Shown: positions 29,805 through 58,644 of the stretch, one piece after another
Layout: the number at the start of each line of letters is the position of its first letter
Numbering within the stretch: position 1 is the first letter of the stretch
NCBI GenBank assembly: GCA_902567855.1
Contig: CACFOQ010000002.1
Coordinates: 79,163 to 143,162 of the forward strand
Direction: 5' to 3'
DNA from: an uncultured Alphaproteobacteria bacterium
GTDB taxonomy: Bacteria > Pseudomonadota > Alphaproteobacteria > HIMB59 > GCA-002718135
Length of the DNA stretch: 64,000 nt
Notes under the pieces: model-generated
The model's database searches: none
What the model was told of the DNA's origin: nothing
Seen by the model: the letters and a program-made list of their open reading frames with translations, nothing else
Translations under genes and position numbers: made by a program

Positions 29805-31571
29805 ATGGCAAAAATGACAACTGAAGAGGCTTTTATAAAGGTATTGCAAATGCATGGAATAGAACATGCTTTTGGAATTATCGGATCTGCATTTATGCCA
29901 ATATCTGATTTATTTCCTAAAGCTGGGATAACTTTTTGGGATGTAGCACACGAATCAAATGGTGGACTAATTGCTGACGGATATACAAGATCTACTGGTA
30001 AAATTGCTATGTGTATAGCTCAAAATGGACCAGGAATTACTGGTTTTGTTACACCTATAAAAACAGCGTATTGGAATCATACGCCTATGCTTTTAGTTAC
30101 TCCTCAGGCAGCTAATAAAACTATAGGTCAAGGTGGTTTTCAAGAAGTTGAACAAATGAATTTATTCAAAGATATGGTTTGTTATCAAGAAGAAGTTAGA
30201 GATGCTTCAAGAATGGCAGAGGTACTTAATAGAGTTATTGAAAAAGCAATTAGAGGATCTGCTCCTGCACAAATTAACGTTCCAAGAGATTTATGGACTC
30301 AGGTAATTGATATTGAATTACCTTCAATTATCAGAATGGAAAGACAAGCAGGAGGAGTAGAAGCAATAAATAAAGCGACTGAACTTTTATCTAACGCTAA
30401 ATTTCCAGTTATATTATCTGGAGCCGGAGTAGTATTAGCAAATGCAATTGAAGATTGCGTTAAATTAGCAGAGAAGCTTGATGCGCCTGTAGCTTGTGGC
30501 TATCAACACAATGATAGTTTTCCTGGTAAACATCCATTAGCTGTTGGACCACTTGGTTATAATGGATCAAAAGCAGCAATGGAGATTATTTCTAAAGCTG
30601 ATGTCGTTCTTGCTTTAGGAACAAGACTTAATCCATTTTCTACTTTGCCTGGTTATGGAATTGATTATTGGCCTAAAGAAGCAAGCATTATTCAAGTTGA
30701 TATTAATGCAGATAGAATAGGCTTAACAAAAAAAGTATCCGTTGGTATTTGCGGTGATGCTAAACTAGTAGCACAACAAATACTTTCCAAATTGGATTCT
30801 AAAGCTGGAGATATAGGTCGTGAAGATCGTAAGTCCTTAATTCACCAAACTAAATCAGCTTGGTTACAAACTTTGACAAGTCTTGATCATGAAGAGGATG
30901 ATGAAGGAACAACTTGGAATAAAGATTCACGAGAAAGAGATCCTCACAGAATGTCACCGCGTATGGCTTGGAGAGCAATTCAGGCAGGACTTCCAGAAGA
31001 CGCTATAATATCAAGTGATATAGGAAATAATTGTGCAATTGGAAATGCGTATCCAACTTTTGAAAAAGGAAGAAAATATTTAGCACCTGGTCTTTTTGGT
31101 CCATGTGGATATGGTTTTCCTTCAGTATTAGGAGCTAAAATTGGTTGTCCTGATACCCCTGTTGTTGGTTTTGCAGGAGATGGAGCATTTGGAATTAGTA
31201 TGTCAGAGATGACATCTTGTAACCGAAAAGAATGGCCTAATATTACTATGGTTATCTTTCGTAATTATCAATGGGGTGCTGAAAAAAGAAATTCTATTTT
31301 ATGGTATGACAATAATTTTGTTGGAACTGAATTAGACCCAGAACTTAGTTATGCTAAAATTGCTGAAGCATGTGGTTCTAAAGGTGTGCTTGTTAAAACA
31401 CAAAATGAATTAACTGAAGCAATAAGAGTTTCATGTCAGGAACAGCAAAAAGGTATAACGACTTTTATTGAAGTCATTCTTAATCAAGAATTAGGAGAAC
31501 CTTTTAGACGTGATGCAATGAAAGCTCCTGTAGAAGTAGCAGGAATTAATTCTGCCGATATGCAAAACTAG
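29805..31571 (+). CDS. xsc: Sulfoacetaldehyde acetyltransferase
   Basis: Xsc is a thiamine-diphosphate enzyme that converts sulfoacetaldehyde and phosphate to acetyl phosphate and sulfite, the desulfonation step in taurine and related C2-sulfonate use. The 588-residue protein shows Xsc-specific blocks not seen in acetolactate synthases: FGIIGSAFMPISDLFP near 18-33, GPGITGFVTPIKTAYWNH near 75-92 and QGGFQEVEQMNLF near 111-123. The ThDP/Mg motif GDGAFGIS lies near 454, followed by VIFRNYQWGAEKRN near 480. It stands alone on the plus strand; its partner genes (aminotransferase, alanine dehydrogenase, Pta-like, AprMBA) are 12-22 kb downstream. Sulfite made here is the natural substrate for AprBA. 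Confidence 0.96.
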   Translation: MAKMTTEEAFIKVLQMHGIEHAFGIIGSAFMPISDLFPKAGITFWDVAHESNGGLIADGYTRSTGKIAMCIAQNGPGITGFVTPIKTAYWNHTPMLLVTPQAANKTIGQGGFQEVEQMNLFKDMVCYQEEVRDASRMAEVLNRVIEKAIRGSAPAQINVPRDLWTQVIDIELPSIIRMERQAGGVEAINKATELLSNAKFPVILSGAGVVLANAIEDCVKLAEKLDAPVACGYQHNDSFPGKHPLAVGPLGYNGSKAAMEIISKADVVLALGTRLNPFSTLPGYGIDYWPKEASIIQVDINADRIGLTKKVSVGICGDAKLVAQQILSKLDSKAGDIGREDRKSLIHQTKSAWLQTLTSLDHEEDDEGTTWNKDSRERDPHRMSPRMAWRAIQAGLPEDAIISSDIGNNCAIGNAYPTFEKGRKYLAPGLFGPCGYGFPSVLGAKIGCPDTPVVGFAGDGAFGISMSEMTSCNRKEWPNITMVIFRNYQWGAEKRNSILWYDNNFVGTELDPELSYAKIAEACGSKGVLVKTQNELTEAIRVSCQEQQKGITTFIEVILNQELGEPFRRDAMKAPVEVAGINSADMQN

Positions 31572-43377: not shown

Positions 43378-45240
43378 TTAAGAGGCAGCAAACTTTTTTT
43401 CTTCATCATCTATTATATGATACACAGGCATCTTTTCCATAGTAAATTTACCCGTTTTTGGATCACGTCTAGATACAGTTAAGCAATGCCAATTCTCATC
43501 ATCTAATTTCATATGATCACCTCTATAATAATACCCAGGCCATCGCGTTTCTTCTCTGAATAAAGTGTGCTCTGTAACACATTGAGAAGTAAGAGTTCTA
43601 TGTTTCAATTCCCATGCTCTCATAAGTTGATGGTAATCTTCAGCTCCAACATGCTCTAAATCTTCTTTTAATAAATCTAATAACTCTAATCCTCTTTTAA
43701 GAGTATTTTCGTTTGTCATATAATTAAAAGAAATACCCCCTACATATTCATCCATAATTTTTTGAAGACGTTGTAATCCCTGAAGTGGCAAAATATAACT
43801 CGGAGAAACTGTTCCTGCAGTAATTTCATTTCTTCCCACTTTATAATTCTCTAAAGGCTTATAAATTATTTCTCTAAAGTTTTCGCATTGTTTTTCGCTT
43901 ACATCTATATCTTCTGCTTTTTGATCTTGGATATATTTCACTGCTGCTTTTGCTGCTAATCGTCCTTCAGTAAATGAACCTGAAGAAAATTTATGGGCAC
44001 TTCCGCCTACAGTATCACCAGCTCCAAAAAGCCCCTCAACTGTTGTCATTCTATTATATCCCCAAAAGTATTCAGGTGGAGATAAATCCTCTGGCCCACT
44101 TACCCAAGCACCTGAACATGTTGCATGTGAACCCATTACATACGGTTCAGAAGTAGTTAATTCAGGATTTTGATATTTAGGATCAATATTTTGAGAGGCC
44201 CAAACTACTGCTTGCCCAACTGTCATTCCTAAAAAATTTTCCCAACCAATGGTTTCCAAATGAGGATCTTGGAAAGCTTCTTTAGTCACCATATGAATTG
44301 GACCACGTCCAGCCATAACTTCTTGTATAAATGCATGGTTACGTAAGCATGTAGGAGTAGGATGGTGATCTATGTATTCACCTACCAACTCTTTTGTTTG
44401 GTCGTACCACTTTTTTTCATAATTTTCTCCATTTGCATTTTGTGTATATGTTTTAAGATGTAAAAAATATGCTCCAACTGGTCCATAACCATCTTTAAAT
44501 CTACACAATACAATACGATTTTCCATTTGTGTCATTTTAGCTCCGACATCAATTGGTAATGCATATGCTGAACCATTGCTCCACGGTGCATACCAAGTTC
44601 TTCCCATTCCTTCTCCTACTGCTCTAGGTTTAAAAATGTGGGATGCCCCACCTGCTGCTACAATTACGGTTTTTGCTCTAAAGACATGATAATTTCCTGT
44701 TCGCATATTAAAACCAACTGCTCCACCAACTCTATTTTCTTTAGTTTCATCCATTAAAAGATGAGTAATCATAATTCTATTATAGATTTTATCAGCGGAT
44801 TTTTTTGCTGCTTCAGCAACAATAGGTTTGTAGCTTTCTCCATGAATCATTATTTGCCATTTACCTTCTCTTTGGTATCTGCCGGTTTCTTCATTACGCA
44901 TCATGGGGAGTCCCCATTCATCAAACATATGTACAGTTGAATCGACATGACGAGCCATATCATAACCCAAATCTTCACGAACAAGTCCCATTAAATCATT
45001 ACGAGCATAACGAACATGATCTTCAGGTTGATTTTCACCCCATTGCATTCCCATATAACAATTGATTGCATAAAGACCTTGTGCAACAGCACCACTTCTA
45101 TCTATATTGGCTTTTTCTACACAAATTATTTTTAGATCTCTTCCCCAATGCCTTGCTTCAAAAGTTGCCCCCGTTCCAGCCATTCCGCCACCTACAACTA
45201 ATACATCGCAATTTTCATAAACTGTTTTATTTTTTGGCAT
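43378..45240 (-). CDS. aprA: Adenylylsulfate reductase alpha subunit
   Basis: AprA is the FAD subunit that, with AprB, interconverts sulfite plus AMP and APS. Here oxidation of sulfite from Xsc or other sulfonates is the expected direction. The 620-residue protein has the FAD motif VVGGGMAGTGATFEARH at 15-31, AprA-specific RNHAFIQEVMAGRGPIHM near 302-319, HATCSGAWVSG near 377-387 and GAGDTVGGSAHKFSSGSF near 408-425. The start lies on the same base as the aprB stop, with AAGGAG 10 bases before the ATG. It resembles the AprBA lineage carried by SAR11-type and other sulfur-oxidising bacteria. No ATP sulfurylase (sat) gene is in this window. Confidence 0.96.
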   Translation of the reverse strand: MPKNKTVYENCDVLVVGGGMAGTGATFEARHWGRDLKIICVEKANIDRSGAVAQGLYAINCYMGMQWGENQPEDHVRYARNDLMGLVREDLGYDMARHVDSTVHMFDEWGLPMMRNEETGRYQREGKWQIMIHGESYKPIVAEAAKKSADKIYNRIMITHLLMDETKENRVGGAVGFNMRTGNYHVFRAKTVIVAAGGASHIFKPRAVGEGMGRTWYAPWSNGSAYALPIDVGAKMTQMENRIVLCRFKDGYGPVGAYFLHLKTYTQNANGENYEKKWYDQTKELVGEYIDHHPTPTCLRNHAFIQEVMAGRGPIHMVTKEAFQDPHLETIGWENFLGMTVGQAVVWASQNIDPKYQNPELTTSEPYVMGSHATCSGAWVSGPEDLSPPEYFWGYNRMTTVEGLFGAGDTVGGSAHKFSSGSFTEGRLAAKAAVKYIQDQKAEDIDVSEKQCENFREIIYKPLENYKVGRNEITAGTVSPSYILPLQGLQRLQKIMDEYVGGISFNYMTNENTLKRGLELLDLLKEDLEHVGAEDYHQLMRAWELKHRTLTSQCVTEHTLFREETRWPGYYYRGDHMKLDDENWHCLTVSRRDPKTGKFTMEKMPVYHIIDDEEKKFAAS

Positions 45241-45710
45241 TAGTAGTAAACTCCTTTTTTAAAAGAGTCCTTATTTATTGTTGGCAATTCTTTTTTTGTA
45301 TTTAAACCTTCAGGTTCAGAATATAAAATTTGTGAATTGATTTCTCCTTGATTAGGTAGATCTGCTTCAGCTAATTTTGGAATATATTCCCCCCAAGGTT
45401 TAGTTGTAATTGGAGAGACAAAATTTTTTTCTGTTCCATTTCTAAATTTAATTCTCCAAGAAATAGTTCCCTTTTCTTCTTCTCTAAGAACTCTAACACT
45501 ATGTCCCATTGGAGCAAAGTCAGCATATCCTCTAGCATCAATAGCTTCATTTGGACATGCTTTAACACAGGAGTAACATTCCCAACACATATTAGGCTCA
45601 ATATTTACTGCACGTCTGGTAGTTGGATCTATGTGCATAATATCTGATGGACATATATCAACACAATGACCACAGCCATCACATTTAGTCATATATACAA
45701 AAGTTGACAT
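45240..45710 (-). CDS. aprB: Adenylylsulfate reductase beta subunit
   Basis: AprB carries two 4Fe-4S clusters that exchange electrons with the FAD of AprA. The 156 residues show CDGCGHCVDICPSD near 10-23 and CWECYSCVKACPNEA near 42-56, with the standard CxxCxxC...C spacing. A C-terminal tail with KKELPTINKD, which in other AprBs wraps around AprA, is present. The gene has an AAGGAG Shine-Dalgarno and shares one base with aprA. It lies 51 bases after aprM. Confidence 0.95.
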   Translation of the reverse strand: MSTFVYMTKCDGCGHCVDICPSDIMHIDPTTRRAVNIEPNMCWECYSCVKACPNEAIDARGYADFAPMGHSVRVLREEEKGTISWRIKFRNGTEKNFVSPITTKPWGEYIPKLAEADLPNQGEINSQILYSEPEGLNTKKELPTINKDSFKKGVYY

Positions 45711-45761
45711 TTTAATTTAACTCCTTTTTTATTTTATTTTTTCCTTTTTTCATATCTAAAA

Positions 45762-46559
45762 TCAATAATGTTTTGGAGCTTCTCTTTTTATACCTAAACC
45801 AAATTGTTTAGGTTGATCAGAAGGCTCAGGTAGATTATCTCTAGAACCATCTGCTTCAGCTAAATTTCTTTGAATTGCAGCTCCAGGTTTATAAAACATA
45901 TGTGCAAACTTTGACCAATATACACCTCCAAATAAAACTAAATTAGATAATCCAAATAAGATAAGAAAAAATATACTCCAACCTATAACATTGTATGATT
46001 GTAAGAAAGACCATAAAAGAGCAAAAGTAGAAGTAATTACAAGTGACAGAACAAATAAGTCAGCTTGAATTATACGGTACCATGGATGAGCTTCAGCTGA
46101 AACATCTACCCTAAGAAAAAACCAAAACCAGTATCCACCTAAACATGTCATAATTGCACCAACATGCCAAAGAATTGGATATATAATAGGAGTCTTTATA
46201 GTTGAGGAGGAATAACAAAAAATCAAAATAACAGATGTAGCCCAAAAAAGTAAAGTGCCGTACATCCCTAATAAATGTGCTACTCTTCTTTTACCTGCGC
46301 CTAACTCTGAAGTTGTTAAAATTTCACTTGCAAAAGTTTTAGCTATTATTGATGTTTTTTCATTTGAAGATAAATTTCTTTTTGCTTGGGATTTGGCTTT
46401 TTTTGCATTTTGAAAAAAATATTTTACATTTTTTTTATGTATAATATCAAACAATGTACCTAAAATTACTAAAACAACCATTAAGATAACAAATACTTGC
46501 ATTATAATTGAAGGCAAAAATACCGAAAGTGTAGCAAATGGATTATTTGAAATTATCAA
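45762..46559 (-). CDS. aprM: Adenylylsulfate reductase membrane anchor AprM
   Basis: AprM is the probable electron-transfer/anchor partner of AprBA in sulfur-oxidisers and SAR11-type bacteria. The 265-residue protein has about five or six hydrophobic segments and several histidines that could bind heme: VAHLLGMYG near 90, ILWHVGAI near 130, SAEAHPWYR near 154 and FAHMFYKPG near 221. It uses a TTG start codon (46559) preceded by AAAGGAG. Transcript order is aprM-aprB-aprA-116-aa gene. It diverges from the APS-kinase-like gene over 134 bases. Confidence 0.85.
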   Translation of the reverse strand: MIISNNPFATLSVFLPSIIMQVFVILMVVLVILGTLFDIIHKKNVKYFFQNAKKAKSQAKRNLSSNEKTSIIAKTFASEILTTSELGAGKRRVAHLLGMYGTLLFWATSVILIFCYSSSTIKTPIIYPILWHVGAIMTCLGGYWFWFFLRVDVSAEAHPWYRIIQADLFVLSLVITSTFALLWSFLQSYNVIGWSIFFLILFGLSNLVLFGGVYWSKFAHMFYKPGAAIQRNLAEADGSRDNLPEPSDQPKQFGLGIKREAPKHY

Positions 46560-46693: not shown

Positions 46694-47188
46694 ATGAAAA
46701 TTTTGATATTTGGATTGCCTGGATCTGGCAAAACTTGGTTAGCTGAGAGGTTGGTTAAAGAAATAGATAATTGTGCTTGGTATAATGCTGATTTTGTAAG
46801 AAGATATGCCAATGACTGGGATTTTGAGATTTCAGGTAGGATAAGGCAAGCGAATCGAATGAAAACCTTTGCAGATTTTGAAAAATCACAAGGAAGATGG
46901 GTTATTTGTGATTTTGTTGCACCTACTGAGGAAGCTAGAAAAGCTTTTGATGCAGACTACTTAATATGGCTTGATACATTTGATGAAGGTCGAGTCGTAT
47001 CATCTAAATTAAAAGAATTAAAAAATATTAAAAATTTGCCATTTGATGCAACTAATCTTGCTAAAAGTAAAAAATTTGATGACACTACTAAGATGTTTGA
47101 AAAACCAAATAACGTAGATTTTCATATTACTAAATTTTTAAACAATAAAGAAATAGAAAAATTGGCTGATAAAATAAAAAATGTTTAA
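46694..47188 (+). CDS. APS-kinase-like (CysC-related) P-loop protein
   Basis: This 164-residue P-loop protein resembles the adenylylsulfate kinase family. The Walker A is GLPGSGKTW at 7-15, and the segment NADFVRRY lines up with the DGDNVRHG substrate loop of CysC. GRIRQANRMK follows it as in DRKENIRRV, and VICDFVAPTEEARKAF matches the ISPYRxxRD region. CysC phosphorylates APS to PAPS; here that is a guess because the substrate loop is divergent. It sits beside aprMBA (divergent) and overlaps the next gene by 8 bases, so the pair is an operon. A different small-molecule kinase of the same superfamily is possible. Confidence 0.72.
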   Translation: MKILIFGLPGSGKTWLAERLVKEIDNCAWYNADFVRRYANDWDFEISGRIRQANRMKTFADFEKSQGRWVICDFVAPTEEARKAFDADYLIWLDTFDEGRVVSSKLKELKNIKNLPFDATNLAKSKKFDDTTKMFEKPNNVDFHITKFLNNKEIEKLADKIKNV

Positions 47189-47582
47189 TTGGAAAAAACC
47201 AACTGTAGAAATGTTAGGTAGGTGGCAACCTTGGCACGATGGGCACACTGCACTTTTTAAAAAAGCATTAAAAAAAACAGGACAAGTTTGTATTATGTAT
47301 AGAGATGTTGGGGGTGTTGATGCTGGTATAGAAGGTCAGTCTGATAATCCTTTTGATTTTGATGAAGTTAAAAAAAATATTATTGAAGGTTTAAAACCTC
47401 ATGGATTTGAAGAAGGAAGAGAATATATTGTTTTAAAGGTTCCTAATATCGTAGATATTTCTTATGGAAGAGGAGTGGGATACACATTTACGGAACATGA
47501 TCTTGGTGAAGAAATTCATAAAATTTCTGCAACAAAAATTAGAAAAGAAATGCGTAATAAGGGTGATTTAAAAAACAATTAA
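47181..47582 (+). CDS. Small HxGH-motif nucleotidylyltransferase-like protein
   Basis: This 133-residue protein carries the nucleotidylyltransferase signature GRWQPWHDGH at 13-22 (H19 and H22) and a C-terminal ISATKIRKEMR near 116-126, equivalent to ISSTxIR in NadM/CoaD/PanC-type enzymes. The region between has a VGGVDAGIEG loop of unknown use. ATP sulfurylase shares the HxGH fold but is far longer, so this is at most a minimal relative. It is 8 bases overlapped with the APS-kinase-like gene. Substrate is unknown; the APS kinase and apr context hints at sulfur-nucleotide chemistry, without proof. Confidence 0.7.
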   Translation: MFNWKKPTVEMLGRWQPWHDGHTALFKKALKKTGQVCIMYRDVGGVDAGIEGQSDNPFDFDEVKKNIIEGLKPHGFEEGREYIVLKVPNIVDISYGRGVGYTFTEHDLGEEIHKISATKIRKEMRNKGDLKNN

Positions 47583-48481: not shown

Positions 48482-49393
48482 TTATTGTGCAGCTATTATG
48501 GAAGCAGCAATTGAGGCTAATCTAGAAGCTGTGTTATCAGCTCTACTTGTGACAACAACAGGTACTTTACCTCCAACTATAAATCCTGCAGCACAAGCTC
48601 CCATAAAATATACCATGATCTTAGATAATGAGTTACCTGTTTCTAAATTTGGAACTAAAAGAATATCAGCTTTTCCAGCTACTTCATTGTTAATCTTTTT
48701 TATTTTAGCTGCTTCAGGAGAAACAGCATTGTCAAAGGCTAAAGGTCCATGGACAAAAGCATCAATGTTATCTTTGATAGCTCTTTCCATAATTGTTTTT
48801 GCATCCATTGAGCTTGGCATACTTTCTATAGGATCTTCAGTTCCAGATAATATTGCTACTTTTGGTTTTGTAATATTTATTTTTTTTGCAAACTCAACTA
48901 CGTTGTTTAATATATGCATTTTTACATCAACTCTTGGAGAAACATTCAATGCTCCGTCAGTGATAAATAAAGGTTTAGAATTTTTTGGTGTAGTCATGTG
49001 CCATATATGACTTAGTCTTTTTGTTCCCAATAAACTAAAATCTTTTTTTAAATAGGTACGCATAAGTATGTCTGTGTGAATATTACCTTTGATTATAACT
49101 TTTATTTGATTTTCTTTAGCAAGACTTGCTGCTTCAATTACAGAGTTTTGATCATTTTCACAGTCAATAATTTTAAAGTTATCAATATCCCAATTAATTT
49201 TTTCTGCTTTATTAATAATTTGTGATTTGATGCCAATAAAAATAGGATCAATTAAATTTAAATCATAAGCTTGTTTTGCTGATTCAATTACAGACTCTTG
49301 ATGAGCACACACAATAGCTACAGGAACTTTTGGTGTTTTTTTTGCTAATTGAATGAGACTTTCCGGGACAATGGCTTTTATATTAGATAACAT
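48482..49393 (-). CDS. Phosphate acetyl/butyryltransferase (Pta/Ptb family)
   Basis: This 303-residue enzyme has the Pta/Ptb fold: VAIVCAHQESVIESA near 26-40, IIKGNIHTDILMR near 100-112, the LSHIWHM segment, and the C-terminal GPLAFDNAVSPEAA and ILLVPNLETGNSLSK near 215-262. Such enzymes convert acetyl phosphate and CoA to acetyl-CoA. Xsc makes acetyl phosphate, so this is the likely next step in sulfonate catabolism. The subgroup is nearer the short phosphate butyryltransferase-like type than the long E. coli Pta. It diverges from the aminotransferase operon and abuts a DMT transporter gene downstream. Confidence 0.87.
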   Translation of the reverse strand: MLSNIKAIVPESLIQLAKKTPKVPVAIVCAHQESVIESAKQAYDLNLIDPIFIGIKSQIINKAEKINWDIDNFKIIDCENDQNSVIEAASLAKENQIKVIIKGNIHTDILMRTYLKKDFSLLGTKRLSHIWHMTTPKNSKPLFITDGALNVSPRVDVKMHILNNVVEFAKKINITKPKVAILSGTEDPIESMPSSMDAKTIMERAIKDNIDAFVHGPLAFDNAVSPEAAKIKKINNEVAGKADILLVPNLETGNSLSKIMVYFMGACAAGFIVGGKVPVVVTSRADNTASRLASIAASIIAAQ

Positions 49394-49523: not shown

Positions 49524-50864
49524 ATGAGTACAGAGAACAGATTAGAACTTCCAAATTCTTTAGAAGAACATTGGATGCCATTTACTTCCAATCAGGATTT
49601 TAAAGAAAATCCAAGACTTATGGTAAAGGCGGAGGGAGTTTATTATACAGACCATTACGGAAAAAAATTAATTGATGCAAGTTCTGGATTATTTTGTAGT
49701 CCGGCTGGTCATGGAAGATCTGAAATCAGAAAAGCAGTTTATGATCAACTTGAACGTCTAGATTATGTTCAACCTTTCCAACAAGGTTATAATGGTTCTT
49801 TTGAATTAGCACGTAAAATTTCTCAACATACACCAGGTGATCTTAATAGAATTTTTTTTACTATATGTGGATCGTCAGCTGTAGAAACTGCTATTAAAAC
49901 AGCCATTGCATATTTTAAAGCAAAAGGCGAAGGACATAGATCACATATAGTTGGAAGAGAAAGAGGTTATCATGGCATGAACATAGGAGGAATTTCTGTT
50001 GGTGGAATGATAGCTAATAGAAAAACTTTTTCAAATATTTTAATGCCTAATGTCCATCATCTTCGACACACACATTTACCTGAAAATCATTTTGTAAAAG
50101 GACAGCCGGAAACGGGAGCAGATTTAGCAGATGATTTAGAGAGAATTGCAGGACATATAGGGGCTGAAAATATTGCTGCATGTATTGTAGAACCAGTAGC
50201 TGGCTCAACAGGGACATTAGTTCCACCTAAAGGTTATTTACAAAGATTAAGAGAAATTTGTGACAAACACGGAATACTTCTTATTTTTGATGAAGTAATT
50301 ACTGGTTGGGGTCGAATGGGAGAACCATTTGCAGCTCAAGCTTTTGGAGTAACTCCTGATATGATGACTATGGCAAAAGCTGTTACTAATGGCGTAGTTC
50401 CTCTAGGAGCTGTTGCTTCTAGTGAAAAAATTTATGATGCAATGATGGATGCTGCACCTAAAGGAGCTATAGAATTTTTTCATGGTTATACTTATTCAGC
50501 AATTCCTTGTTCTGTTGCTGCTGGTTTAGCTATGCAAGATATTATAGAAAAAGAAAATTTATTTCAAAGAGCAAAAGATATGTCTCCATACTTTTTAGAT
50601 GGATTATTTAGTCTTAAAGATATCGACGGCATAGTTGATATTCGAGGTTATGGAATGATGGGTGGAATTGATATTCGTATGGATGAACGACTTGGTAAAG
50701 CAGGATATGCTTGTTTTAAATCATTGTTTGCAAATGGATTAAGTCTAAAAGCCACGGGAGATTGTTTAATTGTAGCGCCACCTTTTATATGTGAAAAAAA
50801 ACATATTGATGAAATAATTGAAAAACTTAGAACAGGTATTACAAATTATTTTAAATCTAACTAA
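49524..50864 (+). CDS. Omega-amino acid:pyruvate aminotransferase (candidate taurine:pyruvate transaminase)
   Basis: This class III PLP aminotransferase has 446 residues. The PLP lysine is K285 in MMTMAKAVTNG, preceded by the cofactor aspartate D256 in LLIFDEVITGWGRMG; the N-terminal EEHWMPFT and YTDHYGKKLIDASSGL are typical of the beta-alanine/omega-amino-acid:pyruvate group. Such enzymes act on beta-alanine, taurine or hypotaurine. Pairing with alanine dehydrogenase, one base overlapped, gives the Tpa/Ald couple of taurine use, with Xsc present in the same window. Beta-alanine:pyruvate is the main alternative. It leads a four-gene operon with ald, a ureohydrolase and a DUF1989 gene. Confidence 0.85.
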   Translation: MSTENRLELPNSLEEHWMPFTSNQDFKENPRLMVKAEGVYYTDHYGKKLIDASSGLFCSPAGHGRSEIRKAVYDQLERLDYVQPFQQGYNGSFELARKISQHTPGDLNRIFFTICGSSAVETAIKTAIAYFKAKGEGHRSHIVGRERGYHGMNIGGISVGGMIANRKTFSNILMPNVHHLRHTHLPENHFVKGQPETGADLADDLERIAGHIGAENIAACIVEPVAGSTGTLVPPKGYLQRLREICDKHGILLIFDEVITGWGRMGEPFAAQAFGVTPDMMTMAKAVTNGVVPLGAVASSEKIYDAMMDAAPKGAIEFFHGYTYSAIPCSVAAGLAMQDIIEKENLFQRAKDMSPYFLDGLFSLKDIDGIVDIRGYGMMGGIDIRMDERLGKAGYACFKSLFANGLSLKATGDCLIVAPPFICEKKHIDEIIEKLRTGITNYFKSN

Positions 50865-51979
50865 TGAAAATAGGAGTTCCTAAAGAAATTAAGGCTCAAG
50901 AATCTCGAGTTGGACTAACACCTATAAGTGTTCAAGAGTTAACTAATCACGGTCACGAAGTGATAATTCAAGATAATGCAGGTTTTGGAGCAGGATTTGA
51001 AAATACTGACTATGAAAAAGTAGGTGCAAAAATAGCGCCTAGTGCTGGCGATATATTTAATGATTCAGATATGATTGTTAAAGTTAAAGAACCTTTAAGT
51101 AATGAAGTTTCAATGCTTCGAGAGAATCAGATTCTCTTTACTTATCTCCACTTGTCTGCAGCTCCAGATTTAACAAAAGGTTTAGTAAATTCAAAATCTA
51201 TTTGTATAGCTTACGAAACAGTAACGGATGAATATAAACGTTTACCTTTATTAGCACCAATGAGTGCTGTTGCTGGTAGAATGTCCATACAAGCAGGAGC
51301 TCGATCTCTAGAAAAACCTTTAGGAGGAAGGGGTTTATTAATAGGTGGCGCACCAGGTGTAAATCCAGGATCAGTTTTAATTTTAGGAGGAGGAGTAGTT
51401 GGAGAAAATGCTGCAATTATAGCAGCTGGAATGCAATCAAAGGTTTTTATTGTAGATAAATCAGAAGAAAGATTGAATCAATTAAAGTCTAAATTTGGAG
51501 AAAGCGTTAAAACACTTCTTTCTAATGAAATTAAATTAGAAGAACTTGTTGAAGACTGCGACCTATTAATAGGAGGTGTTTTAATACCTGGAGCAAATGC
51601 TCCAAAATTAGTTTCCAAAGAAATGATTAAAAAAATGAAACGCGGATCTGTTATTGTAGATGTGGCAATTGATCAAGGTGGTTGTGTTGAGACAAGCAAA
51701 CCAACAACTCATGCTAATCCAACTTATATTGTTGATGATGTAGTGCATTATTGTGTAGCCAATATGCCAGGAGGTGTTCCAATGACTTCAACTCTAGCTT
51801 TAAATGCTGCTACGTTACCTTTTGTATTAAAACTTGCTCAAGAAGGTTATAAAAATGCTTTAGCAAGTGATGCTAATTTTCTAGCTGGTCTTAATGTTTG
51901 CCAAGGCAATATTACTTATAAGGCAGTAGCTGATGATTTAGGCTTAGAATTCATTGACCCAAGCAAGGCAATAAACTAA
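50864..51979 (+). CDS. ald: Alanine dehydrogenase
   Basis: Ald oxidises alanine with NAD to pyruvate and ammonia, regenerating the amino acceptor for the preceding aminotransferase. The 371 residues show the family N-terminus MKIGVPKEIKAQESRVGLTP, the KVKEP block near 73, the NAD-binding GGGVVGENAAIIAAGM near 173-188, and VDVAIDQGGCVETSKPT near 263-279. Substrate-binding LHLSAA near 91-96 is also present. The ATG overlaps the aminotransferase stop by one base and the next gene follows 10 bases later. Confidence 0.95.
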   Translation: MKIGVPKEIKAQESRVGLTPISVQELTNHGHEVIIQDNAGFGAGFENTDYEKVGAKIAPSAGDIFNDSDMIVKVKEPLSNEVSMLRENQILFTYLHLSAAPDLTKGLVNSKSICIAYETVTDEYKRLPLLAPMSAVAGRMSIQAGARSLEKPLGGRGLLIGGAPGVNPGSVLILGGGVVGENAAIIAAGMQSKVFIVDKSEERLNQLKSKFGESVKTLLSNEIKLEELVEDCDLLIGGVLIPGANAPKLVSKEMIKKMKRGSVIVDVAIDQGGCVETSKPTTHANPTYIVDDVVHYCVANMPGGVPMTSTLALNAATLPFVLKLAQEGYKNALASDANFLAGLNVCQGNITYKAVADDLGLEFIDPSKAIN

Positions 51980-51989
51980 TTGATTAAAT

Positions 51990-52967
51990 ATGACTGACTC
52001 AAATGATGAGTTAATGATGGAAACAATGTATTGGTGGGGAATACCAACATTGTTTCGTTGTGAGCATAATAAAGATTTATCAAGTTGTGACATTGCATTA
52101 GTAGGTGTGCCTCATAGTACGGGAAATGGAACAACAGAAAGAGATCAACATTTGGGCCCAAGAGCTGTTCGTCATGTTTCAGCTGGACTTAGAAGAGTTC
52201 ATTTAGATTTTAATATCAATCCTTGGAAAAAGAAAAAGATTTTTGATTTAGGTGATGTTGCTTTACCCCATGCAAATAACAATGAAAAATGTATTGAAGA
52301 TATAACTAATTTTTATAAAAAAATTGCTAATGAAAATAAACCTGTTGTTTCTATAGGTGGCGATCATTCTATTACAGGGGGAATTTTACAAGGCTTAGGA
52401 TCTAATAGTTTAGAAATGACTAAGGGAAAAAAAATATCCTTTTTGCATATTGATGCCCATACAGATACTTTCAGTCAACTTGATCATTTTATGGGAGCAA
52501 AAAAAAGTGCTGCTCACTGGGGAGCTTATCTAGTTGAACAGGGCATTATAGATCCCAAAACTAGTATGCAAATTGGTATGCGAGGTAATCCTCGCACGCT
52601 AGATTGGTTACAGCCAAGTTATGATCTTGGATATAACGTAGTTACTATGGATGAATTTCAAAAAAGAGGTATTGATGATGTTATAAAAGAGACTTTAGAT
52701 AAAATAGGAGACAATCCAGTTTATATTACTTTCGATTTAGACTCATTAGATTCATCTGTTGCTCCTGCAGTTTCAAATATAGAACCTGGTTTTACTGGCT
52801 TTACAATTGATGAGGCTAAATCTTTAATTCAATCAGTGAAAAATAAAAATGTAATTGGTGGTGATGTTGTGTGTTTAATGCCCACCAAAGATCAAAAAAA
52901 TAATATTACTGCAATGGTGGCTGCATCAATTATGTTTGAAATAATAAGTGTCATTGCTTTTAAGTAA
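51990..52967 (+). CDS. Ureohydrolase-superfamily protein (agmatinase-like, altered loop)
   Basis: The 325-residue protein has all six binuclear manganese ligands of the arginase/agmatinase fold: H126 in GGDHS, D155/H157/D159 in IDAHTD, and D249/D251 in FDLDSLD. The substrate loop that in ordinary agmatinases reads like DP...APGTGTPE is here DSSVAPAVSNIEPGFTG (residues 254-270), so the guanidino substrate is likely different. Sharing an operon with an omega-amino acid transaminase and Ald suggests a guanidino acid such as guanidinopropionate or taurocyamine, giving urea plus an omega-amino acid. Agmatine remains possible. The stop overlaps the DUF1989 start by one base. Confidence 0.82.
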   Translation: MTDSNDELMMETMYWWGIPTLFRCEHNKDLSSCDIALVGVPHSTGNGTTERDQHLGPRAVRHVSAGLRRVHLDFNINPWKKKKIFDLGDVALPHANNNEKCIEDITNFYKKIANENKPVVSIGGDHSITGGILQGLGSNSLEMTKGKKISFLHIDAHTDTFSQLDHFMGAKKSAAHWGAYLVEQGIIDPKTSMQIGMRGNPRTLDWLQPSYDLGYNVVTMDEFQKRGIDDVIKETLDKIGDNPVYITFDLDSLDSSVAPAVSNIEPGFTGFTIDEAKSLIQSVKNKNVIGGDVVCLMPTKDQKNNITAMVAASIMFEIISVIAFK

Positions 52968-53827
52968 TGAAAAATAATTCTCAACATCCTAAACCTGAAG
53001 ATGGAGAAAAAAGAAAATTAAAAAAACCGGTTATTTGTTATCCAAATAAATCAATAAAAATAGATCGTTGGTCAGATTATCAGGTTGCTAGAAAAGATTT
53101 AGATAAAATAGATGAAATAATTATTCCTCCAAGAGATGCTAAATGTTTTGAAGTTAAAGCAGGAAATTTTTTTAGAATAGAAAGTATCGATGGACCTCAA
53201 GTTGGTGATCTTAATTTATTCAATTTAGATAATTATGATGAAAAATTCTATTCTGGCAAAACAAGAGCTCTTCATGGAACACACCTTTCATCAAAAGATC
53301 AAATGTGGAGTTCATTTCCTTATTTACGACCACTTGTAACAATTACATATGATACATTAGATTGGTATGGATTTGATCAAGATGGAGGTTCCGTTCATGA
53401 TGTAATTGGAACGAGATGTGACCCATATACTAAAAATTTACTTTCAAATGATCAGTATCATTTTTGCTGTCACTCAAATTTAACAAGAGCATTAGTAAAT
53501 GAAAAAAACCTTGAACAAAAAGAGGCGGAGAGCCTTGTCCATGACGTGTTAAATGTTTTTATGTGTACAGGATTTACAAATGATACTCATCAATATTTTA
53601 TGAAGGCCAGTCCAGTAAGACCCGGAGACTATATTGAATTTTTTGCAGAACTTGATTTGTTGGGAGTATTATCAGCGTGTCCAGGAGGAGATTGTAGCGC
53701 TGAACATTCTTCAGATGCAGCTAATTGTTATCCATTAAAAGTGTCAATTTTCAATTCTAATTCAAATGTTTTAAAAGATTGGGAATCTCCACCAATTTCT
53801 AAATATAACCAATCTCATGGCTTTTAG
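52967..53827 (+). CDS. DUF1989 / urea-carboxylase-associated family protein
   Basis: This 286-residue protein belongs to DUF1989, a family long labelled urea carboxylase-associated and in part now known (CgdA/CgdB) to be carboxyguanidine deiminases. The core segments are a GNFFRIESIDGPQVGDLNLF region near 66-85 and FPYLRPLVTITYDT, then a C-terminal LSACPGGDCSAEHSSDA cysteine-rich block near 243-259. A single-gene version without a partner or a guanidine/urea carboxylase, and about 50 residues longer than typical CgdA/B, suggests another subgroup. It is the last gene of the aminotransferase-Ald-ureohydrolase operon. Confidence 0.8.
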   Translation: MKNNSQHPKPEDGEKRKLKKPVICYPNKSIKIDRWSDYQVARKDLDKIDEIIIPPRDAKCFEVKAGNFFRIESIDGPQVGDLNLFNLDNYDEKFYSGKTRALHGTHLSSKDQMWSSFPYLRPLVTITYDTLDWYGFDQDGGSVHDVIGTRCDPYTKNLLSNDQYHFCCHSNLTRALVNEKNLEQKEAESLVHDVLNVFMCTGFTNDTHQYFMKASPVRPGDYIEFFAELDLLGVLSACPGGDCSAEHSSDAANCYPLKVSIFNSNSNVLKDWESPPISKYNQSHGF

Positions 53828-53828
53828 G

Positions 53829-54881
53829 CTATTTAAATTTTTTTGCTGCTAAAGACATAATTTTTAACTTCTTTATCGCAAGTTCTCTACTTAAATGGCC
53901 AAGGCCGCAATCAGGTGCAACAATTAATTGTTCTTTAGAAATAAATTTTAATGTCTCTTTCATTCTATTTTCAATTTCTTCAACTGTTTCAATTTTAGAA
54001 CTGGCAATTTTAATGACCCCAAAAATTATTTTAGTATTTTTGTAATTTTTTAGTAATGATAAATCATTATATCGATGTGCGTCTTCCAGAGATACACTAT
54101 CAATTTTGGAACTATCAAGAGCCTTAGCAATTTTTTTATAAGAATCTAATGGTGCTTTAGGATAATTTACTGCATCTATTTTATCTGGATAACCGCAACA
54201 AATATGCGTTATTTTTTCAACATTATTTTGATTTATTCCTTCAAAACATTTTTCTAAATTTTTTATTCCAAAAGCTAGAGCATTATCAGGCTTTCTGGCA
54301 AATAAAGGTTCATCAACTTGAATATATTCACATCCTGCATCTACTAATCTTTTAATTTCTACATTAATAGCAATTGCTAAATCGTAGCCCATTTCTTCAT
54401 CTGATGTGTAATGCGTATTAGCAATAGTGTCTGTAATTGTCATAGGTCCAGGAATAGTAACTTTAACTGGTTTATTCGAAAGACTTTGATTACTTTTCCA
54501 TTCATCTACTAAGAAGGGATCTGCAGCTGAAATTTTATTAGTTATAGTAGGTAACCAACATTTATAATTTCCTGTTCTTGCTACCTTTTCTGTAAGTGTA
54601 TTAAAATCAACTCCATTTAAATGCCTACAGTGATAATGAATATAATTTTCTCTTTTGATTTCTCCATCTGTAATAATATCTATCCCACAATCTAATTGAT
54701 CTTTAATAACTTCTTTAGCCGCTTTATCAAAAATTGCTTCAGCATCTACTCCCATTTTTTTAATTTCGTCTTCATAAAACTTTGTTGGAGTAGCAGTGTC
54801 AGTACCTCCTTTAGCATTAAACCAGTCTGTAATTTTTAGATAGTCAGGTTTAGGAAAAGCACCGATAACTGTTGTTAACAT
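53829..54881 (-). CDS. MetE-like (core, cobalamin-independent methionine synthase C-terminal-type) protein
   Basis: The 350 residues resemble the C-terminal catalytic half of MetE without the N-terminal half, a class called core-MetE. The zinc-site pieces are HICCGYP near 221-227 and APDCGLGHLS near 329-338 (with the terminal cysteine), and the N-terminal DGEIKRENYIHYHCRHLNG near 71-89 is typical. It may methylate homocysteine using an unusual methyl donor or demethylate a small metabolite. It is the downstream partner of the sulfatase (6-base gap) and convergent with the DUF1989 gene. Confidence 0.8.
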   Translation of the reverse strand: MLTTVIGAFPKPDYLKITDWFNAKGGTDTATPTKFYEDEIKKMGVDAEAIFDKAAKEVIKDQLDCGIDIITDGEIKRENYIHYHCRHLNGVDFNTLTEKVARTGNYKCWLPTITNKISAADPFLVDEWKSNQSLSNKPVKVTIPGPMTITDTIANTHYTSDEEMGYDLAIAINVEIKRLVDAGCEYIQVDEPLFARKPDNALAFGIKNLEKCFEGINQNNVEKITHICCGYPDKIDAVNYPKAPLDSYKKIAKALDSSKIDSVSLEDAHRYNDLSLLKNYKNTKIIFGVIKIASSKIETVEEIENRMKETLKFISKEQLIVAPDCGLGHLSRELAIKKLKIMSLAAKKFK

Positions 54882-54887
54882 TTGTTT

Positions 54888-56417
54888 CTAATTATTTAAT
54901 CTTCTTGTATTAGGCCCAGAATTTATTTTAACTCCTTTTGAAGATAACATAGTGTTAGATAATTGTCTTTCTTGATGAAGCATTCGGTGACTTAATAATT
55001 TGGATAAAAGATCATTTTTAATAGATTGATATTCAGGTAAGTCAGCAAGATTTATGACTTCATTAGGATCATCTTCCATATTAAATAATAATGAAGAAAG
55101 AGAAGGAAAGTGAACATATTTCCATTTTTTAGTTCTAATAACTGATAAATTACATTCTTCAGGAGCAAGTTTTTCCTCTGCAACAAATGAAGTCCATTCT
55201 CTAAAATCATAATCAAAAACTACATAATCTTTTGGTGAAATTTCACTTTTTAGATTATTTAAATAAGGCACTAACGATCGTCCATTCCAATCAACAGGTA
55301 TATCGCCCTCTAACCATTCAAGAATAGTTGGAGCAAGATCAACAGATTCTGTCATTTCATTTACTAAACGTGGTTGTTGACCTGGGATATGAATAATAAG
55401 TGGAATACGATAAGATGAGTCCCACCAACCTAATTTTCCCCATAGATTATTTTCACCTAACATTTCTCCGTGGTCACTTGTAAAAATAATCATAGTATTA
55501 TCTAGCTTTCCTGATGATTTTAAAAATTTTAAAATTTTTCCAATATTATGGTCTACTTCAGCACACATTCCAAAATAAACACTTTTAATATTTTTAATAT
55601 CTTTCTCTGTAAGTTTTGAAAATTTTATTTCTGTAAAATTTTCTTCATTAAGAAATTTTTTTGAAATTTCTTTTAATAAAGGATGTTTTGTTGAAAGTTC
55701 TTCCATTGAAGTATTAGTAATCGGTAATTCAATATCTTCTGGATTTATTTGATTAAACCAGGGATCAGCAACATGAAAAGGAGGATGGGGTTTTAAAAAA
55801 GATACATGTTTAAAAAAAGAATCATTAACTAATGCTAAATCTTCAATTGCTCTATCTGCTAAAAAAGCTGTATCAGAATGTTCTGTAGGAATATGATAAG
55901 GTTTATAAATAAAAGCCTCTTCTTTTTTTGCTGGGCGGCTTTTATACAATTCACTTGCGTGATTAATTTTAAAACCTTTCTTATTTAAATATTCGGCCCA
56001 GGCCTTTGGTTCACTACCTGGCAAAAGACATTTCGTATTGAATCCTTCCATAGGTGATTCATATGTAAAATTTTTTTCATCTTTTTCATTTAAATATCTT
56101 GGGTCCCATGACGTATCGGTATAACCATATAAGTCTGGTTCATATCCAATTTTTCTAACTTCTTTTGCAATGTTAGTAAAACGTTTATCTAAGGGGGCGC
56201 CATTAGTAACAGAACGATGAATAAAAGGATAAAGACCCGTTAGCATTGTTGTTCTAGCTGGTCCGCATGGAACAATTCCAGTGAAATGTGAAGTAAATAC
56301 TGTGCTTGTATTTGCTAAAGCATCAAGATTAGGAGTTAAAACATTTTTGTGTTTCATGAAACCAAAACAATCCCATCTCCACTGATCTGCACATATGAAA
56401 AGCACTGATTTTTTCAT
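54888..56417 (-). CDS. Type I sulfatase (formylglycine-dependent)
   Basis: This 509-residue sulfatase/alkaline-phosphatase fold protein has the metal aspartate D11 in CADQWRWDC and the formylglycine precursor C51 in CGPARTTMLTG (CxPxR), followed by a C-terminal metal cluster FTSDHGEMLGENNLWGK near 310-326. No signal peptide is seen, so it should act in the cytoplasm on an imported sulfate ester. Related enzymes include choline sulfatase and arylsulfatases; substrate here is not readable. It precedes the MetE-like gene by 6 bases and diverges from the binding protein gene. A formylglycine-generating or AtsB-type enzyme must be elsewhere. Confidence 0.88.
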   Translation of the reverse strand: MKKSVLFICADQWRWDCFGFMKHKNVLTPNLDALANTSTVFTSHFTGIVPCGPARTTMLTGLYPFIHRSVTNGAPLDKRFTNIAKEVRKIGYEPDLYGYTDTSWDPRYLNEKDEKNFTYESPMEGFNTKCLLPGSEPKAWAEYLNKKGFKINHASELYKSRPAKKEEAFIYKPYHIPTEHSDTAFLADRAIEDLALVNDSFFKHVSFLKPHPPFHVADPWFNQINPEDIELPITNTSMEELSTKHPLLKEISKKFLNEENFTEIKFSKLTEKDIKNIKSVYFGMCAEVDHNIGKILKFLKSSGKLDNTMIIFTSDHGEMLGENNLWGKLGWWDSSYRIPLIIHIPGQQPRLVNEMTESVDLAPTILEWLEGDIPVDWNGRSLVPYLNNLKSEISPKDYVVFDYDFREWTSFVAEEKLAPEECNLSVIRTKKWKYVHFPSLSSLLFNMEDDPNEVINLADLPEYQSIKNDLLSKLLSHRMLHQERQLSNTMLSSKGVKINSGPNTRRLNN

Positions 56418-56586: not shown

Positions 56587-58644
56587 ATGTTTAAAAAATT
56601 AATTTTAGCTGTTGTCTTTTCTGTTCCACTAACTTGGAGTGGTTATTCTTTTGCTGGTGCTTGCGCTGGTAATGGTTCAACTCAAAGCAGTCCAAATGGT
56701 GTTGATGCAGGAATGTACTCACAACAGTATGAATTAGCAGAGTTTGAACAATTAGCAGGTTGTGAAATGCAATTTAAAGAAAATCCAAATATTGCAAGTA
56801 TCAATGCTAGTATTCAAGGTAATAAAGCTTTACCTCCATTAGCTGAGAGACTTCCGGAAGAACCACTAGTTGTTCGACCATATGATTCAATTGGTAAATA
56901 TGGTGGTACTATTAAATTCTTATCAAATGCAACTGAAGCTGGTACTTCGGATATGTTATCAACTCGTCACGTAAACTTAGTTCGTTTTGCTGATGACTTA
57001 TCTACAATAGTTCCAAACGTTGCTAAAAGCTTTGAGTGGAATGCTGATTTTACTACTTTAACCTTTACTCTTAGAAAAGGTCATAAGTGGTCTAATGGTG
57101 AGCCATTTACTGCTAGAGATGTAGAGTTTTGGTATGAAGATTTAATGATGAATCCTAAAATTAGAGAAAAACCTTATCCATATCTTCTTGTTGGTGGTGA
57201 GCCAATGACTGTAGATGTAGTGAATGATACGACAGTAAGATTTAACTTACCTTCTCCATTCCCTGGATTATTAGCTACTTTAGCATGGACTTATAACCAA
57301 GCTTTCATGCCAGCTCATTTCTTAGAACAGTTTCATCCAGAAATAGATTCTAACGCTGATGCAAATGCTCAAGCACTTGGATTTACTGATGGTTGGGATG
57401 CTCTTGCAGCATACTACGGAAACTCAGGTTGGACTGATACTCCAACTCCAATGTTAAGAAACCCTGATTTAGTTGCAGGCTTAGAATATGCAGCTTATCC
57501 TTCTTTAGAAGCTTATATGACAATTGAAGATACTACTGAAGGAAGAGTGTATGCAGCTAATCCATATTTCCATCAAGTTGATACTGCTGGAAATCAATTA
57601 CCATATATTGATTATCAAAATGAAAGATATATTAATGAAAACGAGATTAGACTTTTAAAACTTGTTAATGGTGAAGTTGATTATAAATCTCAGTCTGTAC
57701 AGCTTGAATCTGCACCTCAATTATTAGATGGTGCTGACTCTGGCGAATATAGTTTGCAAATCAACCCAGGTTGTGGTGCTGCATTATTTAGCTTTAACGT
57801 TACTCATCCAGACATGGAAAAACGTAAAGTTTATGGTGATATTCGTTTCCGTCAAGCAATGTCAATTGCTCTAGATAGAAATGAGATCAACGATGTAGCT
57901 TATTACGGAATGGGTGTAGTAGAGCAGTTTGTAGGTATTTCACCTGCACCTGACTTTGTTTCAGATGAAATCAAAATGCATATGACTGAATACGATCCAG
58001 CTAAAGCTAACGCTTTACTAGATGAAGTTGGATTGAAAGATGTTGATGGAGATGGATTTAGAGAACTTCCAAACGGATCACCTTTTGCAATGAACATTGA
58101 CTATGCTACTCAAGGTATAGGTGGTGTTGAAGTTGAATTAGTTGCTCGTATGTGGAACGATGTAGGGGTTAAAACTTCTTTTAAAGAGGTAACTCCAGAT
58201 GAATATCGTGGATCTCAATCATCTAACGCTCTTGATGTACATGCATGGGATAAAGGACAACCATTGGCGATTATTGCAGGTAACCCTGAAACATTTAAAG
58301 CGCCTTTTGGTAACTACTTTAACCATACTCAAGGTATGCTGTGGGCAGCTTACATTGATAGTGGAGGAACTGATGGTGTAGAACCTCCTCAGTGGGTATA
58401 TGATTTAAGTGATGGGATTGATAAATTCCAATCATATGAATTAGGTACTGCTGAATCAAATGAGTGGGGTGAAAAAATTACTACTATGTTAACAGAACAA
58501 ACTTTGTTAATTGGTACTGTAAAAGCACCTTTCCCAACATATCATAGAAATGCTTTGAAAAACTTCACGCAATTCAAAACAACTTCTTATGAGTATTACA
58601 GAACTTATCCGTATATGGCTACACAGTGGTGGCTTGACGAATAA
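56587..58644 (+). CDS. ABC transporter substrate-binding protein, dipeptide/nickel family (SBP_bac_5)
   Basis: The 685-residue secreted protein starts with a Sec signal peptide (about 1-23, cleavage near SFAGA) and binds a solute for the following permeases. The family core runs from about 85 (IGKYGGTIKF) to 660, with LRKGHKWSNGEPFTARDVEF near 157-176, IRFRQAMSIALDRNEI near 419-434 and many aromatic residues. At nearly 690 residues it is longer than classical DppA/OppA (about 540), as in the large marine and sugar-linked subgroup. Ligand is unknown. A hairpin and strong Shine-Dalgarno precede it and an intrinsic terminator follows it. Confidence 0.9.
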   Translation: MFKKLILAVVFSVPLTWSGYSFAGACAGNGSTQSSPNGVDAGMYSQQYELAEFEQLAGCEMQFKENPNIASINASIQGNKALPPLAERLPEEPLVVRPYDSIGKYGGTIKFLSNATEAGTSDMLSTRHVNLVRFADDLSTIVPNVAKSFEWNADFTTLTFTLRKGHKWSNGEPFTARDVEFWYEDLMMNPKIREKPYPYLLVGGEPMTVDVVNDTTVRFNLPSPFPGLLATLAWTYNQAFMPAHFLEQFHPEIDSNADANAQALGFTDGWDALAAYYGNSGWTDTPTPMLRNPDLVAGLEYAAYPSLEAYMTIEDTTEGRVYAANPYFHQVDTAGNQLPYIDYQNERYINENEIRLLKLVNGEVDYKSQSVQLESAPQLLDGADSGEYSLQINPGCGAALFSFNVTHPDMEKRKVYGDIRFRQAMSIALDRNEINDVAYYGMGVVEQFVGISPAPDFVSDEIKMHMTEYDPAKANALLDEVGLKDVDGDGFRELPNGSPFAMNIDYATQGIGGVEVELVARMWNDVGVKTSFKEVTPDEYRGSQSSNALDVHAWDKGQPLAIIAGNPETFKAPFGNYFNHTQGMLWAAYIDSGGTDGVEPPQWVYDLSDGIDKFQSYELGTAESNEWGEKITTMLTEQTLLIGTVKAPFPTYHRNALKNFTQFKTTSYEYYRTYPYMATQWWLDE

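Follow-up and report, generated by a model that had tools for sequence, protein, structure and literature searches.

What do an arginase-family protein (hereafter UREO) and a DUF1989 protein do directly behind an omega-aminotransferase (AT) and an alanine dehydrogenase (Ald)? This question is raised by a 64,000-nucleotide stretch of DNA (the window) from an alphaproteobacterial genome of 1.35 Mb, 82% complete, for which MarineAlpha5_Bin5 is the nearest named relative that we found. An initial annotation had proposed that UREO splits a guanidino acid (taurocyamine or 3-guanidinopropionate) into urea and taurine or beta-alanine, which would then be consumed by AT, Ald and the sulfoacetaldehyde acetyltransferase Xsc. 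The features concerned are, in window positions:

29805..31571, + strand: Xsc, sulfoacetaldehyde acetyltransferase (TIGR03457, 949.6 bits; cut-off 676.4)
48482..49393, - strand: phosphotransacetylase-like protein of the Pta/Ptb family (PF01515), divergent from AT-Ald
49524..50864, + strand: AT, class-III omega-aminotransferase of AptA/BauA type (NF052567 AptA, 594 bits, cut-off 500; Aminotran_3, 291 bits)
50864..51979, + strand: Ald, alanine dehydrogenase (TIGR00518, 494 bits, cut-off 391.9; AlaDh_PNT C/N, 276/156 bits)
51990..52967, + strand: UREO, arginase-family metallohydrolase of the Cys295 clade (PF00491 Arginase, 222 bits; cut-off 22)
52191..52193, + strand: UREO Arg68, aligned with GbuA Arg72 (substrate-acid cap)
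52773..52790, + strand: UREO loop SNIEPG, residues 262-267, in place of GTGTPE
52872..52874, + strand: UREO Cys295, in place of the guanidinium-binding Glu (arginase Glu277)
52967..53827, + strand: DUF1989 protein of SPO0365/3DI4 type (3di4_A, 427 bits; DUF1989, 149 bits, cut-off 27)

The near absence of spacing in the four-gene run, already remarked on in the initial annotation, is borne out by the coordinates of the open reading frames and by the Pfam matches: AT and Ald share one base, as do UREO and the DUF1989 gene, and 10 bases separate Ald from UREO. The domain assignments of all four proteins are secure. On the 3' side, the operon is directly followed by a gene conserved across the family (53829-54881, -) that encodes a 350-aa MetE-like protein (Meth_synt_2), similar to the short 'core-MetE' proteins of PMC12478193, and then by a gene for a sulfatase-family protein related to PehA (54888-56417, -; 445 against an NCBIfam cut-off of 900, thus below it). 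On the other side, two small genes (46694-47582, +), one for a P-loop kinase that resembles APS kinase and the other for a nucleotidyltransferase-like protein, are also kept in a genus mate (L242).

The closest solved relatives of AT are beta-alanine:pyruvate transaminases (4b98, 413 bits). AT scores above the cut-off of the AptA omega-aminotransferase model, and no taurine model is found among its best 25 families. AT is therefore probably a taurine or beta-alanine:pyruvate aminotransferase, and its match to AptA/BauA makes beta-alanine as likely a substrate as taurine on sequence alone. Xsc, for its part, scores above the threshold of its equivalog model. The roles of AT, Ald and Pta have been described in taurine degraders (PMC10356861), and these three proteins together with Xsc plausibly fit taurine dissimilation. 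The Tpa-Ald-Xsc-Pta system of 'Ca. Taurinisymbion' (PMC10356861) has in common with the window an aminotransferase, Ald, Xsc, Pta and nearby AprAB-like genes, but the AT of the window is of AptA type, and UREO and the DUF1989 gene are additional. The AprAB-like genes of the window (43378-45710, named from sequence and not by profile scan) lie with a membrane-subunit gene at 43378-46559 (-), near the taurine-type genes, and would fit sulfite oxidation. Overall, the proposed route through transaminase, Ald and Xsc stays plausible and is largely core to the family, with taurine itself being the substrate that we infer.

The distribution of the four genes was surveyed in 110 genomes of the same bacterial family as the window. 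AT is present in 87 of them and xsc in 91, compared to 19 for UREO and eight for the window-type DUF1989 gene, all eight being among the 19 UREO genomes. In every family genome that holds both AT and UREO (18/18), UREO lies directly behind Ald, so that its conservation beside the aminotransferase, on which the initial proposal depended, is observed; the four-gene order is also kept in relatives and is thus not a matter of chance. Three layers of gene order are found, pta being kept divergently beside AT-Ald in the family loci: (i) pta-AT-Ald alone (L237-L241, L244), (ii) pta-AT-Ald with UREO (L233-L236, L243), and (iii) the same with both UREO and DUF1989 (the window, L034, L042, L043, L045-L047). 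This layering indicates an AT-Ald core to which UREO and DUF1989 are stepwise add-ons. The four genes are thus a layered operon and not one fixed four-step pathway: the adjacency of UREO and AT that had been anticipated holds, whereas a fixed four-gene unit does not, since UREO and DUF1989 are optional. For all four genes, dN is far below dS. UREO has the lowest values (pN/pS 0.04-0.17), and those of the DUF1989 gene range from 0.18 to 0.26; both are under purifying selection, which is strong on UREO. Outside the family, neither UREO nor DUF1989 adjoins an AT-Ald pair of the window type. The peptide ABC transporter found downstream was considered as a UREO-specific partner and rejected, because it also follows AT-Ald in family genomes devoid of UREO (L237, L238, L244).

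The active site of UREO is where its peculiarity lies. As initially described, all six metal ligands of ureohydrolases are intact (H126, D155, H157, D159, D249, D251), and they are invariant across the clade; the replacement of the GTGTPE-like loop by SNIEPG is likewise confirmed, with Asn263 invariant in the clade. A change that the initial annotation did not mention is more telling than that of the loop. The position of arginase Glu277, the residue that binds the guanidinium group and sets its orientation (PMC9475637, PMC9224512), is a Cys in 29/29 clade members (UREO Cys295), compared to a Glu in 57 of the 60 background ureohydrolases that have a residue there and in all eight references. 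The position of Arg68, which corresponds to the GbuA Arg72 that caps the acid group of the substrate (PMC9772407), is by contrast kept, as R or K, in 28 of the 29 members. Ala174 aligns with the catalytic His141 (His in 44 of 63 background sequences) and a His, His176, is found two residues on, although this region of UREO has a two-residue insertion, which makes the correspondence with His141 approximate. A174-A175-H176-W177 is invariant in the clade, save for an N at 176 in one member, and further clade-specific invariants are H42-S43, N46, R51-D52-Q53-H54 and a K or R at 300. Retention of Arg68 combined with loss of the Glu suggests that the substrate is acidic and that its reactive end is something other than a guanidinium group bound in the normal way.

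In the phylogenetic tree, the UREO clade (28 rows) is monophyletic (support 100/100, stem of 1.39 changes per site) and does not group with GbuA and GpuA. It comprises members from the host family, from several other alphaproteobacterial lineages, from plasmids of Rhodobacterales including Ruegeria pomeroyi, whose orthologue is SPO_RS21005, and from plasmids of Rhodococcus qingshengii. A search of viral contigs for UREO found none, the phage records giving distant agmatinases only, and literature searches found no described function for the Cys295 clade. UREO scores 128.3 with the agmatinase model TIGR01230, below its cut-off of 174.3. The residues listed for the guanidine hydrolase GdmH are T105, H222, W313 and E344 (N. 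inopinata numbering; PMC11410670), the last of which, taken as the Glu277 equivalent, is a Cys in UREO. The AlphaFold model of UREO, obtained from a two-sequence alignment, had a pLDDT of 35 and was unusable, making a fold search on it meaningless.

These features bear directly on the hypothesis that UREO is a guanidino-acid hydrolase releasing urea and taurine or beta-alanine for AT, Ald and Xsc. The nearest solved structures to UREO are GpuA (3NIP) and GbuA (3NIO) of P. aeruginosa, which share with it the fold family, the six metal ligands and the acid-capping Arg; at the position of this Arg, human GDAH has been modelled as contacting the sulfonate of taurocyamine (PMC9772407). However, UREO differs from both by an identity of only about 30%, the Glu to Cys change, the rebuilt catalytic-His region with Ala at the His position, the SNxE loop and its separate clade. 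By the defining residue of guanidino-acid hydrolases, UREO would not belong to this group, and its chemistry is probably not the ordinary release of urea. Furthermore, the urease gene ureC is present in three of the 19 UREO genomes compared to 62 of the 91 other family genomes (Fisher p 4e-5), a contrast that is suggestive only because these genomes share ancestry and are incomplete MAGs; to that extent, the scarcity of urease lends no support to urea being a useful product. Moreover, the window genome already carries a canonical GpuA-like ureohydrolase (C2:144062-144877, -), some 900 bases beyond the end of the window and about 12 kb downstream of UREO, with 54% identity to 3NIP over the aligned part and with the Glu and other canonical residues present. 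This paralogue, whose gene lies near the end of a peptide-type ABC transporter cluster starting at 56587, appears to be a better candidate than UREO for the hydrolysis of guanidinopropionate or taurocyamine. Taken as a whole, the Cys in place of the Glu, the scarcity of urease and the nearby paralogue make plain guanidino-acid hydrolysis by UREO less likely than first thought, and we now regard it as unlikely.

Outside the host family, the neighbourhoods of UREO are diverse. In R. pomeroyi and two other Rhodobacterales, a betaine-type ABC transporter is followed by UREO and then by an overlapping GpuA-like gene, and two of these three also carry DDAH-like and M20 genes upstream of UREO, an arrangement that speaks for guanidino compounds. 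The overlapping pair also raises the question of whether UREO could be a non-catalytic or helper subunit of the canonical GpuA-like ureohydrolase, which the window genome encodes too. The metformin hydrolase MetCaCb, another member of the arginase family with a non-classical substrate, is likewise encoded by an adjacent gene pair. MetCa retains the Glu277 equivalent (E320; PMC11271267), which UREO lacks. However, MetCb has lost the metal ligands (PMC11271267) that are invariant in the UREO clade. As many clade members also have no ureohydrolase neighbour, a helper role for UREO is very improbable.

Other contexts include MetE-like and kynureninase genes (L126), a class-V aminotransferase gene (L245/L246), a peptide-type ABC transporter (L247 and L134), and an acyl-CoA dehydrogenase gene nearby with a DAO-type oxidase gene directly downstream (L248/L249). 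In L128, CuyA and an Xsc-like TPP enzyme are both encoded near UREO, the former scoring above and the latter below its cut-off, together with a sarcosine-dehydrogenase-like enzyme, a betaine-type transporter and a protein of the MTTB family; the gene for CuyA, a D-cysteate sulfo-lyase (L128:6606-7595), is two genes from the UREO orthologue, with the MTTB-family gene between them. HisD-like, SDR and Zn-dehydrogenase genes lie beside UREO in L126, L247 and L250, with TRAP genes in L126 and L250; NCBIfam recognized only hisD and generic dehydrogenase families in this cluster. We presume a likeness to the hpsKLM-NOP genes for DHPS (hps-like), which we treat as a lead and not as evidence. The thread that runs through these contexts is that an amine or amino acid is set free and then undergoes deamination or oxidation, and no single substrate follows from it.

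Several of these neighbours would fit an enzyme acting on a betaine- or creatine-like N-methylated zwitterion, the place of UREO behind AT-Ald then being incidental: the betaine-type transporters (immediately upstream of UREO in Rhodobacterales, in its vicinity in L128), the MTTB-family and sarcosine-dehydrogenase-like genes of L128, the DAO oxidase of L248/L249 and, around the Rhodococcus copy of UREO, genes of creatininase-like and ThiO-like type. However, the Rhodococcus creatininase-like protein is below its NCBIfam cut-off (179.7 against 235), the supporting genes are not common to all contexts, and the linkage of UREO to AT-Ald is strict within the family. We therefore consider such a substrate distinctly unlikely.

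The DUF1989 protein of the window matches PDB 3DI4 over residues 9-285 (277 residues) with 427 bits. This structure, which we take to be SPO0365 of R. pomeroyi, was deposited as uncharacterised. The initial annotation had likened the protein to CgdA/CgdB, with which it shares the PF09347 domain, but it belongs to a different subfamily: its scores with TIGR03424 and TIGR03425 (UAAP1/2), 42.6 against 284.7 and 19.6 against 205.95, are far below the NCBIfam cut-offs, which rules out this identity. Three conserved cysteines align with the zinc ligands C263/C279/C343 of the TMAO demethylase Tdm and are putative zinc ligands. Elsewhere in the same genome, a DUF1989 domain similar to TMAO demethylase occurs in a 792-aa frame (C10:13548-14105, -) that is common in the family. 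Sampling of 385 genomes of the class gave orthologues of the window protein in 39; their gene neighbours include a PLP decarboxylase gene and genes of 5-oxoprolinase type. In the neighbourhoods read outside the family, the wider relatives of the 3DI4 type do not adjoin UREO, and tblastn searches of these DUF1989 loci, with flanks mostly of 8-10 kb, found no UREO; a fixed partnership of DUF1989 with UREO was thus rejected for genomes outside the family.

The explanation that we favour, although we place it slightly short of an even chance, is that of a taurine-type core operon to which UREO and DUF1989 have been added, with UREO feeding a free amine to AT. AT would use taurine or a comparable omega-amino acid as amino donor to pyruvate, Ald would recycle the alanine and regenerate pyruvate for AT, and sulfoacetaldehyde would be converted to acetyl-CoA by Xsc and Pta. 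UREO, as a dimetal hydrolase, may act on an acidic amino compound, a sulfonate or a carboxylate, by stripping a substituent from its nitrogen. Since the clade has lost the guanidinium-holding Glu, a plain guanidino group is an improbable leaving part, and another amidine-, acyl- or N-methyl-modified group could be removed instead. The putative zinc DUF1989 enzyme might act on the UREO precursor or on the released part. This explanation is based on (i) the layered gene order, the constant position of UREO behind Ald and the restriction of DUF1989 to UREO genomes, (ii) the invariant metal ligands, the Cys in all clade members, the retained Arg68 and the monophyly of the clade, (iii) the purifying selection on UREO and the presence of a confirmed Xsc that is core to the family, and (iv) the PLP- or FAD-dependent amine-using genes near UREO elsewhere (L126, L128, L245, L246, L248, L249). 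Against it, the contexts outside the family vary and point to no one substrate, the GpuA-like, DDAH-like and M20 neighbours in Rhodobacterales point back to guanidino compounds, and the Cys might still support guanidine binding. A more specific proposal, tentative and in our view rather doubtful, is that the Cys295 clade is a new arginase-fold dimetal hydrolase, or an amidino- or acyl-transferring enzyme with a Cys nucleophile, that acts on N-substituted taurine, beta-alanine or betaine-like osmolytes.

It should be emphasized that the Cys295 arginase clade is the real point of interest of this locus. The guanidinium-orienting Glu is near universal in arginases, agmatinases and guanidino-acid hydrolases, and a strongly conserved clade that swaps it but keeps the metal site signals a change of substrate or chemistry, which residue-blind labels such as 'agmatinase' or 'arginase family protein' mask. 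Because R. pomeroyi, a marine model organism with an available arrayed library of transporter mutants, has a member of the clade, the substrate is directly testable. If UREO feeds taurine dissimilation, it would constitute an extra oceanic source of taurine-like carbon, nitrogen and sulfur; the new activity, if true, would be common among marine Alphaproteobacteria and would provide a route from modified osmolytes to taurine dissimilation.
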